Assembly: GCA_016184115.1 (NCBI GenBank)
Contig: JACPDH010000068.1
Location: 1-43,406 of the forward strand
Direction of reading: 5' to 3'
From: Acidobacteriota bacterium
GTDB lineage: Bacteria; Acidobacteriota; Thermoanaerobaculia; Gp7-AA8
DNA length: 43,406 bases
How positions within the stretch are numbered: position 1 is the stretch's first letter; the number at the start of each line of letters is the position of its first letter. The position numbers and the translations under genes were made by a program. Positions 9,818-41,548 of this stretch are shown here, piece after piece. The notes beneath the pieces were generated by a model. It searched no databases. It saw nothing but the letters and a program-made list of their open reading frames with translations, and had not been told where the DNA came from.

Positions 9818-9945
9818 CAGAGAGAGGGAGCAAAGAGAAGAAGGCGAAAGGAGCAAGGAACAAGCCGAAAGAAGAAACGAGGAAGAGGGAAGTAGCTCGA
9901 TTGCCGATCGATTTCCTTTCTCTTTGCTCCTCGCTCCTTGCTCCC
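9818..9945. repeat. Heptad-period inverted repeat element A
   Basis: This fills most of the 140-bp spacer between rarA and the thioesterase gene. From 9846 seven consecutive 7-nt units follow the degenerate pattern [G/A][A/C/G]ANNNN, for example GAAAGGA, GCAAGGA, GAAAGAA and GAAACGA. A pyrimidine-rich arm at 9911-9945 carries the complementary pattern and shares a 13-base complement (GGAGCAAAGAGAA) with the first arm. No reading frame on either strand looks coding. It belongs with elements B to E below. Confidence 0.65.
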
Positions 9946-9955
9946 ATCGCTTGCC

Positions 9956-25253: not shown

Positions 25254-25330
25254 TGGTAGGCTCTAGCGGACTCGAACCGCTGACCTCTACCGTGTCAAGG
25301 TAGCGCTCTAACCAACTGAGCTAAGAGCCT
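25254..25330 (-). tRNA. tRNA-Val (anticodon GAC)
   Basis: A 77-nt cloverleaf on the minus strand. The acceptor stem AGGCTCT pairs with AGAGCCT, the anticodon stem CTACC/GGTAG encloses loop TTGACAC (anticodon GAC), and the T arm has the usual TTCGAGT loop. The discriminator A and the CCA end are encoded. It lies 18 nt after tRNA-Val(CAC) and 24 nt before the Thr-rich leader frame. Confidence 0.97.
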
Positions 25331-25348
25331 ATGTTTTCAAACCGTGTT

Positions 25349-25425
25349 TGGTAGGCGCTATCGGACTCGAACCGATGACCTCTACCGTGTGAAGGTAGCG
25401 CTCTAACCAGCTGAGCTAAGCGCCT
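25349..25425 (-). tRNA. tRNA-Val (anticodon CAC)
   Basis: A 77-nt cloverleaf on the minus strand. The acceptor stem AGGCGCT pairs with AGCGCCT, the anticodon stem CTACC/GGTAG encloses loop TTCACAC (anticodon CAC), and the CCA end is encoded. It is very similar to the neighbouring GAC gene, suggesting tandem duplication and anticodon change. Confidence 0.97.
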
Positions 25426-25513: not shown

Positions 25514-25582
25514 CCGAGCGGCGGCTGGTCAGCGCGAGCGCTCGCCAGATCGCTCGGCTTGCCTGCGTTCGGCGTCGTGTCG

Positions 25583-25673
25583 AAGTTAGAACGCAGAACG
25601 ATGAATTGAGAACCGAGAAACGGTACCAACCCCTTTCTGGGTTTTCAATTCATCGTTCTGCGTTCTGACTTCC
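25583..25673. repeat. Heptad-period inverted repeat element B
   Basis: Arm 1 (25583-25615) is a run of 7-nt units GAAGTTA, GAACGCA, GAACGAT, GAATTGA, GAACC. Arm 2 (25641-25673) is its reverse complement, with two mismatches in 33 bases. The 25-nt centre can also pair partly (AGAAA/TTTCT). It lies in the 373-bp spacer between the tRNA-Val promoter and lysS, with no reading frame and no visible target duplication. Confidence 0.85.
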
Positions 25674-28584: not shown

Positions 28585-28644
28585 GCCGGATCGTCGAACG
28601 GAACGCCTCGAGAACGACGACATCCGGATTCGGACGAAGCACGT

Positions 28645-30573
28645 TCACCTACCCGCGCGCGCTTCATACACGGATACACCTTCTCGGTTTGCGATCTGGA
28701 CAGCTTCCGACGAGAGGAACTGGCGCAGATTCGCCGCAGTGCGACGGTCGATGCGGAGCTGGCGCTGTGCCTCGCGCGTCGACGTCTGAATGGTGCCGAT
28801 CACAATGTTCGACTCGAACAGCACCACGTGCGTGATTCCGTCAGCACGCAACCGGTCGCCCAGCTCATCAGGAGACGCCGCGTCGAGATAGCGCGCGAGG
28901 CGCGGGCCGTCGAAACTGCCACCTCCCCGCGCCCGCACATCGAAGCCGTGAATCTCCTGCATGCCGAGAATCAACGCGCGCGCCGACGATGGGAGCTGCG
29001 CGTTGCACCACTCGACCGCAGCAGCGTCCTTGCGCTGCAACGCGACGTAGCTCGCATCGCTCATCGCTCCGCGCGCGATCGCCAGCGGATCGAGCGACGA
29101 GAGGTAGGCTGCAGCCACGCCGAGCTGTAGAAACGAAGCAAGTGCAAGTAAGGCTCCAACCGTGGCCCGCACACGAGTCCGCCCCTCGGTGGCCTTCTCC
29201 AGCCCGCATGCAACGATCCACGCGAAAGTCGTAAGAAACGGAATGAGAATCCGTCCTGCCGGCGCCATGGCAATGAGTAGCACCACGACGGCAAAGAGCG
29301 CCCAGCCGCATACACGAATTCGTCGATCGCGAATCGAGCTCGCGATCGCTGGAAACATGAGGAGCAGCGCGAGCAACGCGACACCAAGCGTGTCGTCGAC
29401 CCAACGTCCATCAAACAGATAGCTGAGCGCAGTCTCAGAAAGCGACTCCCCACGTCGAAATCCGCTGATCTCGCCCCCCTCTCCGGAGAGAAACGGTGCA
29501 ATCGGATTCCACGTCAGAATCAGGTTGCGCAGAAAGAAGACCGACCCGAGTGTGGCGCCGAATAACGCGGCCCGCGCGGTCGAAGCCCTTCGCGGCGGAT
29601 CGACGACGAGCGCAACCGCGCAGAGCGTGAACGCAAGCGGGATAAAGCTGTATTTGAGGAGAAGCCCGGCGGCGATCGCTGCGGCAATAGTCCCGGAGCG
29701 TGCCTGCGTCGACTCGTCGAGGAGCGCGACGAGGAGTGCGAAGCTCACGCCGGTGAGAAGAACATCATTCCCCGACCAGCCTGCCCCGAGGAGCAGTGCC
29801 GGCGTGGTCGCGACCGCGACGGCGAGTGCCGGGCCGAGGGATGGCGCAACTCGCCTCATCCCCCCGAGAAGCAGCAGACCGGTTGCCAACGCCAGAAGCG
29901 CATGAGCCATGTGCGAAGCTAGAGGTGCGGAAGAACCAAGCAATGCGAAAAGCGGGATGTCGGATGACTCCGCGCCGAGAGGAAACCACGAGTGCGACAT
30001 GAGCGGGAAACTGACCGCGTGCCCCTCGAGCGCCCATTGCTTCGGGATCGCGAGATGGTAGGCAGCATCGTCGAGGCTGATTACGGGGAGCTGCGCGAGA
30101 AGCATCGCGGTGAGCGCGCAGATGACGAAGGCCGCACCAACCCAGCGAGAGCACCTCGCGCCCTCGCGCAGCGAAGTCAGTGTGAGGCGCCCTGCCTGAC
30201 TCACGAGTGCGGCAATCCCGGCCACGCACGGCACCAGCATCGCTGCCCGATGCGTCGTCATGTTCGCGATTAGAAACGCGAGCGATCCGTAGACGGGGAA
30301 CCCGACGAGAAGGGCGAGCTCGACCGGGATCTCGTGGCGCACACCACGATCGTTTCGGATCGTCAGTCGCTCGAGCCACTGAATGAGCGCTGCGCCGATT
30401 CCGCTCGCCGCAACGACGGTCACGAGCGCGGCCGCGAACGGTACGGCCAGCCGGCGAATGTTGAGCTCCACAAGAAGGTAGCGTTGGCTGAACGCGAGAA
30501 GAAGAACTGCGACCGCGGCGATCGCGATCGCCGCTGCGAGGCCATCACGACGCTCTCGTTCCTGATCGCTCAA
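28645..30573 (-). CDS. Polytopic membrane protein, GT-C (ArnT/PMT-like) glycosyltransferase candidate
   Basis: The 642-residue protein has about a dozen hydrophobic helices and a soluble C-terminal part (about 510-642). The first large periplasmic loop contains Leu-Asp-Asp-Ala-Ala-Tyr-His (about residue 168), like the acidic motif that GT-C enzymes use at the catalytic site. The C-terminus resembles the small globular domain of family 39-like transferases. These use polyprenyl-phosphate sugars on the periplasmic face; donor and acceptor are unknown here. The start is uncertain: TTG 30573 is the first in-frame option and lacks a Shine-Dalgarno. It follows rimI by 60 bp and may be last in that operon. 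Confidence 0.75.
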   Translation of the reverse strand: MSDQERERRDGLAAAIAIAAVAVLLLAFSQRYLLVELNIRRLAVPFAAALVTVVAASGIGAALIQWLERLTIRNDRGVRHEIPVELALLVGFPVYGSLAFLIANMTTHRAAMLVPCVAGIAALVSQAGRLTLTSLREGARCSRWVGAAFVICALTAMLLAQLPVISLDDAAYHLAIPKQWALEGHAVSFPLMSHSWFPLGAESSDIPLFALLGSSAPLASHMAHALLALATGLLLLGGMRRVAPSLGPALAVAVATTPALLLGAGWSGNDVLLTGVSFALLVALLDESTQARSGTIAAAIAAGLLLKYSFIPLAFTLCAVALVVDPPRRASTARAALFGATLGSVFFLRNLILTWNPIAPFLSGEGGEISGFRRGESLSETALSYLFDGRWVDDTLGVALLALLLMFPAIASSIRDRRIRVCGWALFAVVVLLIAMAPAGRILIPFLTTFAWIVACGLEKATEGRTRVRATVGALLALASFLQLGVAAAYLSSLDPLAIARGAMSDASYVALQRKDAAAVEWCNAQLPSSARALILGMQEIHGFDVRARGGGSFDGPRLARYLDAASPDELGDRLRADGITHVVLFESNIVIGTIQTSTREAQRQLRIDRRTAANLRQFLSSEAVQIANREGVSVYEARAGR

Positions 30574-30633
30574 TCGCGGCCATTATCGATCATCGAGGTG
30601 CGCTCACGCCAACGCTCGCGTACGACTCACCGC

Positions 30634-31143
30634 CTACGCGATGCCTGGCGCTGGCGCGATGCTGCAGGTCATCACGATCGCCGACTCGCCATCGGGGTAG
30701 TAGCGGGGGCGCCGGTAGCGCTCCTCGAACTCGAGCGCGCCATAGAGCTTGCGTGCAGCCTCGTTCGACTCGCGAACTTCGAGAGAGACGCTCGCGATAC
30801 CATTCAGGCGCGCGAAGGCGAACACTTCATCCATCAGCAAAATCGCGACGCGCTGCCTTCGCCACGATGGATCGACCGCGATCTTGTTCACGTGCATTTC
30901 GTCGAGAAAGTACATCGAGAAGATGTATGCGACGAGCTTGCCGTTCGCGGTCGTCGCGACGAGATTGAAGCGGCCGATCGCATCGATCTCGGTCACAAAG
31001 AGCGGGCGCGTCCACGGCACCGGGAACGACAGCTGCTCGAGGGCGACCACGCCATCGAGATCCTCATGTGTGGCTCCTCGGACGACGAGTGGTTCAGCCG
31101 TTCTTTGCAAGCAGCTTCGCTTCCGCTTCGGCGAGACGGACAT
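30634..31143 (-). CDS. rimI: Ribosomal-protein-alanine N-acetyltransferase RimI-like
   Basis: The 169-residue GNAT acetyltransferase is RimI-like: Leu-Glu-x-x-Ser-Phe-Pro-x-Pro-Trp near residue 40, then a His-Val-Asn-Lys-Ile-Ala-Val-Asp-Pro strand, the Arg-Arg-Gln-Arg-Val-Ala acetyl-CoA loop, and Leu-Glu-Val-Arg-Glu-Ser-Asn-x-Ala-Ala with Tyr. The usual Gly in the CoA loop is Val-Ala here. RimI acetylates the N-terminus of S18 and related targets. ATG 31143 overlaps tsaB by 50 bp; TTG 31110 (17-bp overlap) better matches the usual N-terminus, so the start is open. Adjacency to tsaB is a common arrangement. Confidence 0.88.
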   Translation of the reverse strand: MSVSPKRKRSCLQRTAEPLVVRGATHEDLDGVVALEQLSFPVPWTRPLFVTEIDAIGRFNLVATTANGKLVAYIFSMYFLDEMHVNKIAVDPSWRRQRVAILLMDEVFAFARLNGIASVSLEVRESNEAARKLYGALEFEERYRRPRYYPDGESAIVMTCSIAPAPGIA

Positions 31144-32225: not shown

Positions 32226-32324
32226 GAGGTTAGAAGTCAGTGCGTTGAATTGAGAACCCCGAAAGGAGATCCACCGGAGACTTCTATTCTGGATTCTGAA
32301 TTCACCGTTCTAACTTCTAACTTC
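32226..32324. repeat. Heptad-period inverted repeat element C
   Basis: The first arm (32226-32267) reads in 7-nt units GAGGTTA, GAAGTCA, GTGCGTT, GAATTGA, GAACCCC, GAAAGGA. The complement of the second arm (32281-32324) reads GAAGTTA, GAAGTTA, GAACGGT, GAATTCA, GAATCCA, GAATAGA. The arms are complementary over about 40 bases with about eight mismatches. It occupies the 275-bp spacer between divergent dCMP deaminase and FHA genes, and it resembles element B more than the others. Confidence 0.85.
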
Positions 32325-38906: not shown

Positions 38907-39093
38907 GAACTGTGAATGCAGAACGCAGAATGCAGAACGATGAATGTAGAAATGGGATTCGGAGCTGGGCGGGCACCGCCGTTTCTACAATCATGGTGCA
39001 GCGCGCTGCATTCGTTGTTTCCCTCCGCTCCGCCATCCCTGAAGTTTCCCAAGCCCCGCCTCCCATTCCTACATTCTTCGTTCTGCATTCGTT
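38907..39093. repeat. Heptad-period compound repeat element D
   Basis: The first block (38907-38955) holds seven consecutive 7-nt units: GAACTGT, GAATGCA, GAACGCA, GAATGCA, GAACGAT, GAATGTA, GAAATGG. Two inverted blocks follow. At 39062-39093 the complement reads GAATGCA, GAACGAA, GAATGTA, then GGAATGGGA. At 38981-39015 the complement reads GAATGCA, GCGCGCT, GCACCAT, GATTGTA, GAAAC, still in 7-nt phase. It fills most of the 314-bp spacer between the divergent DnaC-like and cyclase-like genes; the remainder is C-rich with TATACT at 39138-39143. Confidence 0.8.
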
Positions 39094-41513: not shown

Positions 41514-41548
41514 ACTTCGGATTTCGAATCTCGGATTTCGGATTTGCT
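41514..41548. repeat. Heptad-period element E (single arm)
   Basis: Five 7-nt units in a row (ACTTCGG, ATTTCGA, ATCTCGG, ATTTCGG, ATTTGCT) lie 11 nt after the cyclase-like gene. On the minus strand they read as GAAATCC, GAGATTC, GAAATCC, GAAGTCG, again GAANNNN. No second arm is visible. Confidence 0.65.

Follow-up and report, generated by a model that had tools for sequence, protein, structure and literature searches.

Seven-base inverted arrays in an Acidobacteriota genome and their association with genes of the S23 (PF05635) family

Several spacers of this Acidobacteriota genome contain arrays of consecutive seven-base units, most of them arranged as hairpins, and the question that they raise is what kind of element they are and what maintains them. 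The window, that is, the whole stretch of 43,406 nucleotides that was analysed, contains five such spacers. The preliminary description took Element B as an inverted repeat of heptads beginning with GAA and assigned four further spacers to the same GAANNNN rule. The features are listed here; S23 denotes the PF05635 protein family discussed below, and G004 is a congener.

25582 to 25672, no strand assigned: Element B, an S23-less heptad hairpin of the GAAGTTA/GAACGAT family, from arm reading and fold.
25582 to 25619, forward strand: left arm of Element B, GAAGTTA GAACGCA GAACGAT GAATTGA GAACCGA GAA.
25635 to 25672, read on the reverse strand: right arm of Element B, GAAGTCA GAACGCA GAACGAT GAATTGA AAACCCA GAA.
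32226 to 32324, no strand assigned: second hairpin of the GAAGTTA family, five units per arm; the syntenic site of G004 lacks it.
38907 to 39090, no strand assigned: third element, of GAATGCA/GAACGAT type, about 100 bp between the arms; G004 lacks this one too at its syntenic site.
9826 to 9950, no strand assigned: element of the GGAGCAA class with imperfect inverted arms, beginning right after a RarA/MgsA-like gene.
41516 to 41545, no strand assigned: lone TTCGGAT array (GAAATCC on the reverse strand) with no second arm.

The inverted arms of Element B (25582-25623 and 25631-25672) are 42 nt each, 90% complementary and separated by a 7-nt loop, and the element folds as single-stranded DNA at -39.2 kcal/mol versus -11.3 for shuffles (z = -11.8), which confirms both its location and its palindromic character. 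Each arm consists of five GAANNNN units and a final GAA; one unit of the right arm begins with AAA instead. The GAANNNN rule extends to the elements at 32226-32324 and 38907-39090, which are of the same kind, but not to the other two spacers: the one at 9818-9945 has a seven-base period and inverted arms (73% complementary), with GGAGCAA rather than GAANNNN as its unit, and the one at 41514-41548 is single-armed. All five lie between recognisable genes, as had been claimed. Their neighbours are protein and tRNA genes, none is located inside a 23S rRNA helix, and an Rfam search of the window returned two tRNAs and nothing else. Two tRNA-Val genes, one with a GAC and one with a CAC anticodon, sit in a 95-bp tandem arrangement at 25254-25425, directly upstream of Element B. 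In G004, a long inverted (GGATTTC)n element (L087 4700-5050, G004:C317) stands in place of about 2 kb of the window genome with an ORF (28586-30653); the lone window array at 41516 has the same unit.

The GAANNNN family is spread over the whole host genome. In pattern searches, run one pattern at a time, the four-unit pattern GAANNNNGAANNNNGAANNNNGAA has 802 matches (438 + 364) in the 4.42-Mb genome (G000), versus 37 (18 + 19) for the same pattern read backwards, which is more than chance. Many of these arrays form pairs that face each other across 9-23 nt, and some across 280-370 bp; the modal array length is five units per arm. The covariation of arms, a check that the preliminary description had proposed, is found: identity at the variable positions is 0.68 within elements versus 0.57 between elements (p = 1e-4). 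Of the idea that period and GAA are kept while the sequence varies, the seven-base period stands, but GAA is not universal: as a repeat class it belongs mainly to a single S23 clade. The suggestion that selection or copying acts on spacing over identity is supported, together with arm matching, since the arms covary and both differ jointly at orthologous sites. Some gene-less copies have loops and flanking modules in common. Many hairpins of the host genome (L031, L033, L034, L035, L037, L039 and L091) have an extra outer inverted module, approximately CCAATGGCCTGAACTTAAG...GAAAG.CTC / GAGGAAGAGGCT, and a common GC-rich loop, and look like a unit of about 155 bp that was copied whole.

Because the interiors of some array pairs are long, a cargo gene was suspected, and the profile PF05635 ('23S rRNA intervening sequence protein', S23) was tried. 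The host genome contains five S23 genes, all over the Pfam gathering cut-off and all outside the window's own contig. Four of them sit between inverted seven-base arrays. Gene L046 is bracketed by GAAGTTA-GAACGAT-GAACGAT-GAATTGA-GAACCCA arms, which are those of the window's own family; L043 and L044 have inverted AGTGCTG/AGTCCTG arrays on both flanks, and L047 has inverted GGAATGC arrays on both flanks. At the fifth gene, L045, there is no more than a GC-rich inverted flank, in which no 7-nt period is clear. The L046 gene adjoins a 400-aa ORF and is not in 23S rRNA. Its ORF (L046 1423-1839) apparently begins upstream of the left array and reads through it (MNEEAEVRTMNDELRTQK...), so that an N-terminal tail with a 7-residue period would be encoded. 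Three other GAA elements (L031 340-720, L032 310-600 and L033 1200-1480) have a common filler starting with CCCACCGGCGGTTGCCGACCACCGATGACCA in place of S23.

ORFs for S23 proteins have been known since 1993 from the intervening sequences of 23S rRNA, and pentameric structures have been solved, but to our knowledge no function or catalytic activity is established for them. The fold is a pentameric four-helix bundle, and the entries 2gsc, 2rld and 4dwl of the PDB each have five chains. The Xanthomonas S23 is an orthologue of XCC0516, the protein of 2gsc.

The layout of inverted array, S23 gene and inverted array surrounds S23 genes in many phyla. Within the class, S23 matches occur in 67 of 147 genomes, patchily among relatives, and the loci with intact flanks have mostly inverted 7-nt arrays (a few are 8-nt), each with its private unit. 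Beyond these, 80 named S23 loci were collected from Proteobacteria, Bacteroidota, Acidobacteria, Planctomycetes, Chloroflexi, Verrucomicrobia, Nitrospirae, Firmicutes, Synergistetes, Hydrogenedentota, Cloacimonadota and others, and 76 were scored together with 240 control windows from the same contigs. An inverted flank match score of at least 18 was reached by 38 of the 76 loci versus 1 of 240 controls, and a lag-7 match of at least 20/28 on both sides by 39 of 76 versus, again, 1 of 240. Arrays are present at 29 of a further 40 S23 matches, the failures being mainly partial-match paralogues of one family. In the larger set, which relies on the Pfam profile for detection and includes relatives that are not independent, inverted arms (score of at least 15) flank 103 of 142 S23 loci from at least 12 phyla, versus 2 of 240 controls; the unit length is 7 in 85 loci and 8 in 14. 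The upstream heptad is the reverse complement of the downstream one, with 0-1 differences, at 61 of 77 loci versus 5% of shuffled pairs. Since the upstream arm is G-rich in 80 of 87 loci, the arrays have a fixed inward polarity. A G-rich upstream arm was also considered as a signal of S23 orientation and rejected; the arms are inverted, hence only the inward polarity of the arrays is indicated.

About a quarter of PF05635 matches have no arrays, and most of these are partial-match paralogues in one family. Such partial matches reach up to 25 per genome in that family (L199-L203, L205-L207 and L209-L211 in G087, G063 and G033); they mostly have no flanking heptads and possibly represent another S23/Avd-like family. 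Loci with 8-nt units include L145, L153, L161, L162, L168, L071, L181, L192, L212 and L213; several of their S23 proteins fall in a subgroup that has the motif GEWRQFLSQARGSL.

Unit sequence and unit length are specific to each S23 lineage. In a phylogeny of 97 S23 proteins, whose forks are poorly resolved outside the named clades and in which near-copies favour clustering, the GAA class requires 4 changes versus 9.3 when shuffled (0 of 500 shuffles as low), and the 8-nt class 4 versus 9.2 (1 of 500). All members of a fully supported ten-protein clade have AGTGCTG-like units or near variants, while a clade centred on Xanthomonadaceae has GGGAATC/GGGATTC-like units. Over all pairs, the correlation between protein and repeat is weak (Mantel r = 0.17, p = 0.0015) and is carried by clades.

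In the cases examined, genomes with dispersed hairpins also hold an S23 with the same unit or a near variant. Among genomes with dispersed AGTNCTG arrays, G000, G004, G011, G012, G013 and G014 hold an S23 with the AGTNCTG repeat, as predicted; the S23 of G002 is flanked by the complementary form, and those of G009 and G016 by close variants. Within the class, 20 or more GAA runs occur in 35 of 67 genomes with S23 versus 2 of 80 without it, though relatives among these genomes do not count as independent cases. In family f5, the S23-less G020 and G026 have three GAA runs each, and most S23-bearing members have dozens to hundreds. The Xanthomonas S23 gene is flanked by GGGAATC arrays, and two Xanthomonas relatives have 84 and 110 GGGAATC triplets versus 0 for controls. 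X. campestris has been reported to contain 186 GGGAATC arrays, including 70 inverted pairs (PMC4692102); inverted pairs of heptads had thus been described earlier, and the link to cyanobacterial heptads that the preliminary description raised is not needed.

Orthologous elements can differ in both arms at one site, and their arrays change copy number. At the site of Element B (25583), G004 has a hairpin of a different heptad, of GAATGAA type. Loss of the 7-nt periodicity in relatives had been named as evidence against the family; the periodic hairpin is kept at this site, but the elements at 32226 and 38907 are absent from the syntenic spacers of G004. Eight orthologous hairpin sites were compared in four Xanthomonas species. 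The array copy number varies between species, and at site e5 two of the four have an element and the other two an empty site. At three of the eight sites (e3, e4 and e7), both arms in X. dyei are GGGGACC/GGGACCC, where the other species have GGGAATC, though the listed X. dyei S23 (L099) retains its GGGAATC flanks. The X. dyei (G150) heptad GGGGACC is a cyclic form of GGGACCG, which has been reported at 49 sites in Geobacter metallireducens (PMC2700814). Since the Xanthomonas elements are positionally very stable, rewriting of the arrays may outpace jumping. No case of transposition with a cleanly duplicated target site was found, the edges of the empty sites (32226 and 38907 in G004, e5 in Xanthomonas) having diverged. 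A repeat unrelated to these, about 145 bp long (AGCGGCTAACAAA...TTTTATTAGC; L266 1496-1650 in Xanthomonas G147) is missing at the corresponding site of G148; it has dozens of diverged copies in X. dyei and looks like a small mobile repeat.

Several known systems have features in common with this layout. The REPIN/RAYT system also has a gene with inverted short repeats, dispersed gene-less hairpin doublets and a repeat class tied to the gene lineage (PMC3116915). However, its gene is a Y1 tyrosine transposase and its REP is one conserved palindrome, whereas the flanked gene here is S23 and each arm is a tandem array of 7- or 8-nt units. The S23-array element would appear to work like REPIN/RAYT but is no member of it, because the gene between its repeats is not the transposase that defines that system. 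The 23S rRNA intervening sequences of Leptospira and Coxiella likewise have an S23 ORF within an inverted repeat, but the elements of the window have protein and tRNA genes as neighbours and heptad arrays as arms, and gene-less copies are dispersed. Intervening sequences are suspected to be selfish elements, and how they move is an open question (PMC4990558). The Xanthomonas GGGAATC repeats of Rehm et al. 2015 are the same arrays and match the flanks of the Xanthomonas S23; that study treats them as G-quadruplex SSRs and does not mention S23 (PMC4692102). Intergenic multi-copy 7-nt arrays have also been described, each without a partner gene, as TAACTGA heptads in Beggiatoaceae (PMC4679880), as GGGACCG and MTYCTGA heptads in G. 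metallireducens (PMC2700814) and as STRRs in cyanobacteria; they were regarded as direct repeats or putative regulatory sites (PMC4679880, PMC2700814). In the open-access literature, subscription papers and preprints being outside the search, no paper linking S23 to heptads was found. Avd, the accessory protein of diversity-generating retroelements (DGRs), resembles PF05635 in sequence and structure (PMC10053308), with five chains in 4dwl as in 2gsc and 2rld, although the profile match of PF05635 to Avd is not significant (E = 0.78). Unlike DGRs, the arrays here require no reverse transcriptase or template and variable repeats. Indirectly, the Avd resemblance suggests a nucleic-acid role for S23.

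The window hairpins appear, on sequence evidence, to belong to a widespread S23 element family, in which the gene is mostly bracketed by mirror-image arrays that follow the protein tree. The reading we lean towards, with some reserve, is that they lack S23 and are non-autonomous forms of an element in two parts, S23 and its cognate array. A complete element would comprise an inward array of about 4-6 seven-base units, the gene for the S23 four-helix bundle and the same array inverted. The directional array may be bound by the S23 pentamer, whether in the form of a duplex, a single strand, a cruciform or RNA, and such binding would preserve unit length, direction and arm matching. It would also open the S23-less hairpins to replication or repair enzymes of the host, which would copy or re-template them in trans; the chemistry is assigned to these enzymes because S23 has no catalytic activity that we know of. 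The pair would then correspond to REPIN/RAYT with the transposase replaced by a recognition protein that is not an enzyme. One repeat unit might occupy each subunit of the ring, five per arm in the host genome; since five units are modal there but array lengths vary widely elsewhere (the detection floor of the survey being about four units), equating five units with the pentamer stays a guess. The case as a whole is one of association, which does not prove binding.

The main rival is that S23 is a host regulator or a nucleoid- or RNA-binding protein whose sites are the hairpins, acting at mRNA ends, as terminators or in chromosome organisation, with the arrays around S23 serving autoregulation and nothing being mobile. 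Purifying selection on S23 (dN/dS 0.02-0.08), which speaks for the two-part element as well, the stable hairpin positions over the Xanthomonas species, the several hairpins that begin at gene ends and the proposal that Geobacter heptads are regulator sites (PMC2700814) would all suit such a protein. It is nevertheless rather unlikely, given that arrays lie on both sides of the gene with the inward polarity of a mobile element, that S23 is patchy between relatives, that a genome can hold several S23 copies with a different heptad each, and that some gene-less copies have common loops and flanking modules, hence whole units were copied. More doubtful still is that a transposase or reverse transcriptase encoded elsewhere moves the hairpins, as in MITEs, REPIN/RAYT or retroelements, with S23 as a passenger. 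The layout resembles that of MITEs and REPINs, and the S23-like Avd works with a reverse transcriptase in DGRs (PMC10053308), but the repeat class follows the S23 phylogeny, and RVT_1 (PF00078) has no match in G000, G004 or most array-rich relatives. Dependence on reverse transcriptase was therefore rejected for the host genome, and dependence on RAYT was rejected for G017, which has 513 GAA arrays and one GAA-flanked S23 with no match to the Y1 transposase (PF01797); neither enzyme is thus generally required.

There are two further explanations, and we give little credence to either. Ordinary slippage could produce microsatellites in palindromic form with no dedicated protein, in keeping with the copy-number differences between species and with heptads being a common bacterial repeat class (PMC4692102). 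This is strongly disfavoured by the tight cross-phylum linkage to one gene family and the association across genomes (35 of 67 versus 2 of 80), as well as by the inverted arrangement, inward polarity and within-locus heptad identity. Just as improbable is that the repeats act through G-quadruplex structure (Rehm et al. 2015): GGGAATC and GGGGACC arrays could form it (PMC4692102), but most units (GAACGAT, AGTGCTG, AGTTGAC, AGTGAAG) have no GGG tract and yet the same architecture. General action through G-quadruplexes was rejected, as the window family also has no GGG; it may be a side property of one lineage.

Through the association with S23, a large class of bacterial repeats, described piecemeal in Xanthomonas, Geobacter, Beggiatoa and cyanobacteria, gains a partner gene, and S23 a direct and cheap binding test. 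The pairs of protein and repeat form a natural series, possibly readable as a recognition code, and the switching of both arms in place means that the repeat sequence turns over while the architecture is kept. It is conceivable, though we hold it with less assurance than the two-part element itself, that S23/IVP proteins are recognition rings specific for both the sequence and the period of tandem 7-8-nt arrays. With these arrays they would constitute a class of minimal elements, mobile or self-maintaining, that spans phyla and has so far gone unrecognised. Such elements would have no nuclease or polymerase of their own; the protein would direct enzymes of the host to inverted arrays, to be copied and re-templated in trans. 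If this is true, it would explain the genome-wide heptads of many bacteria as well as the origin of the rRNA intervening sequences.
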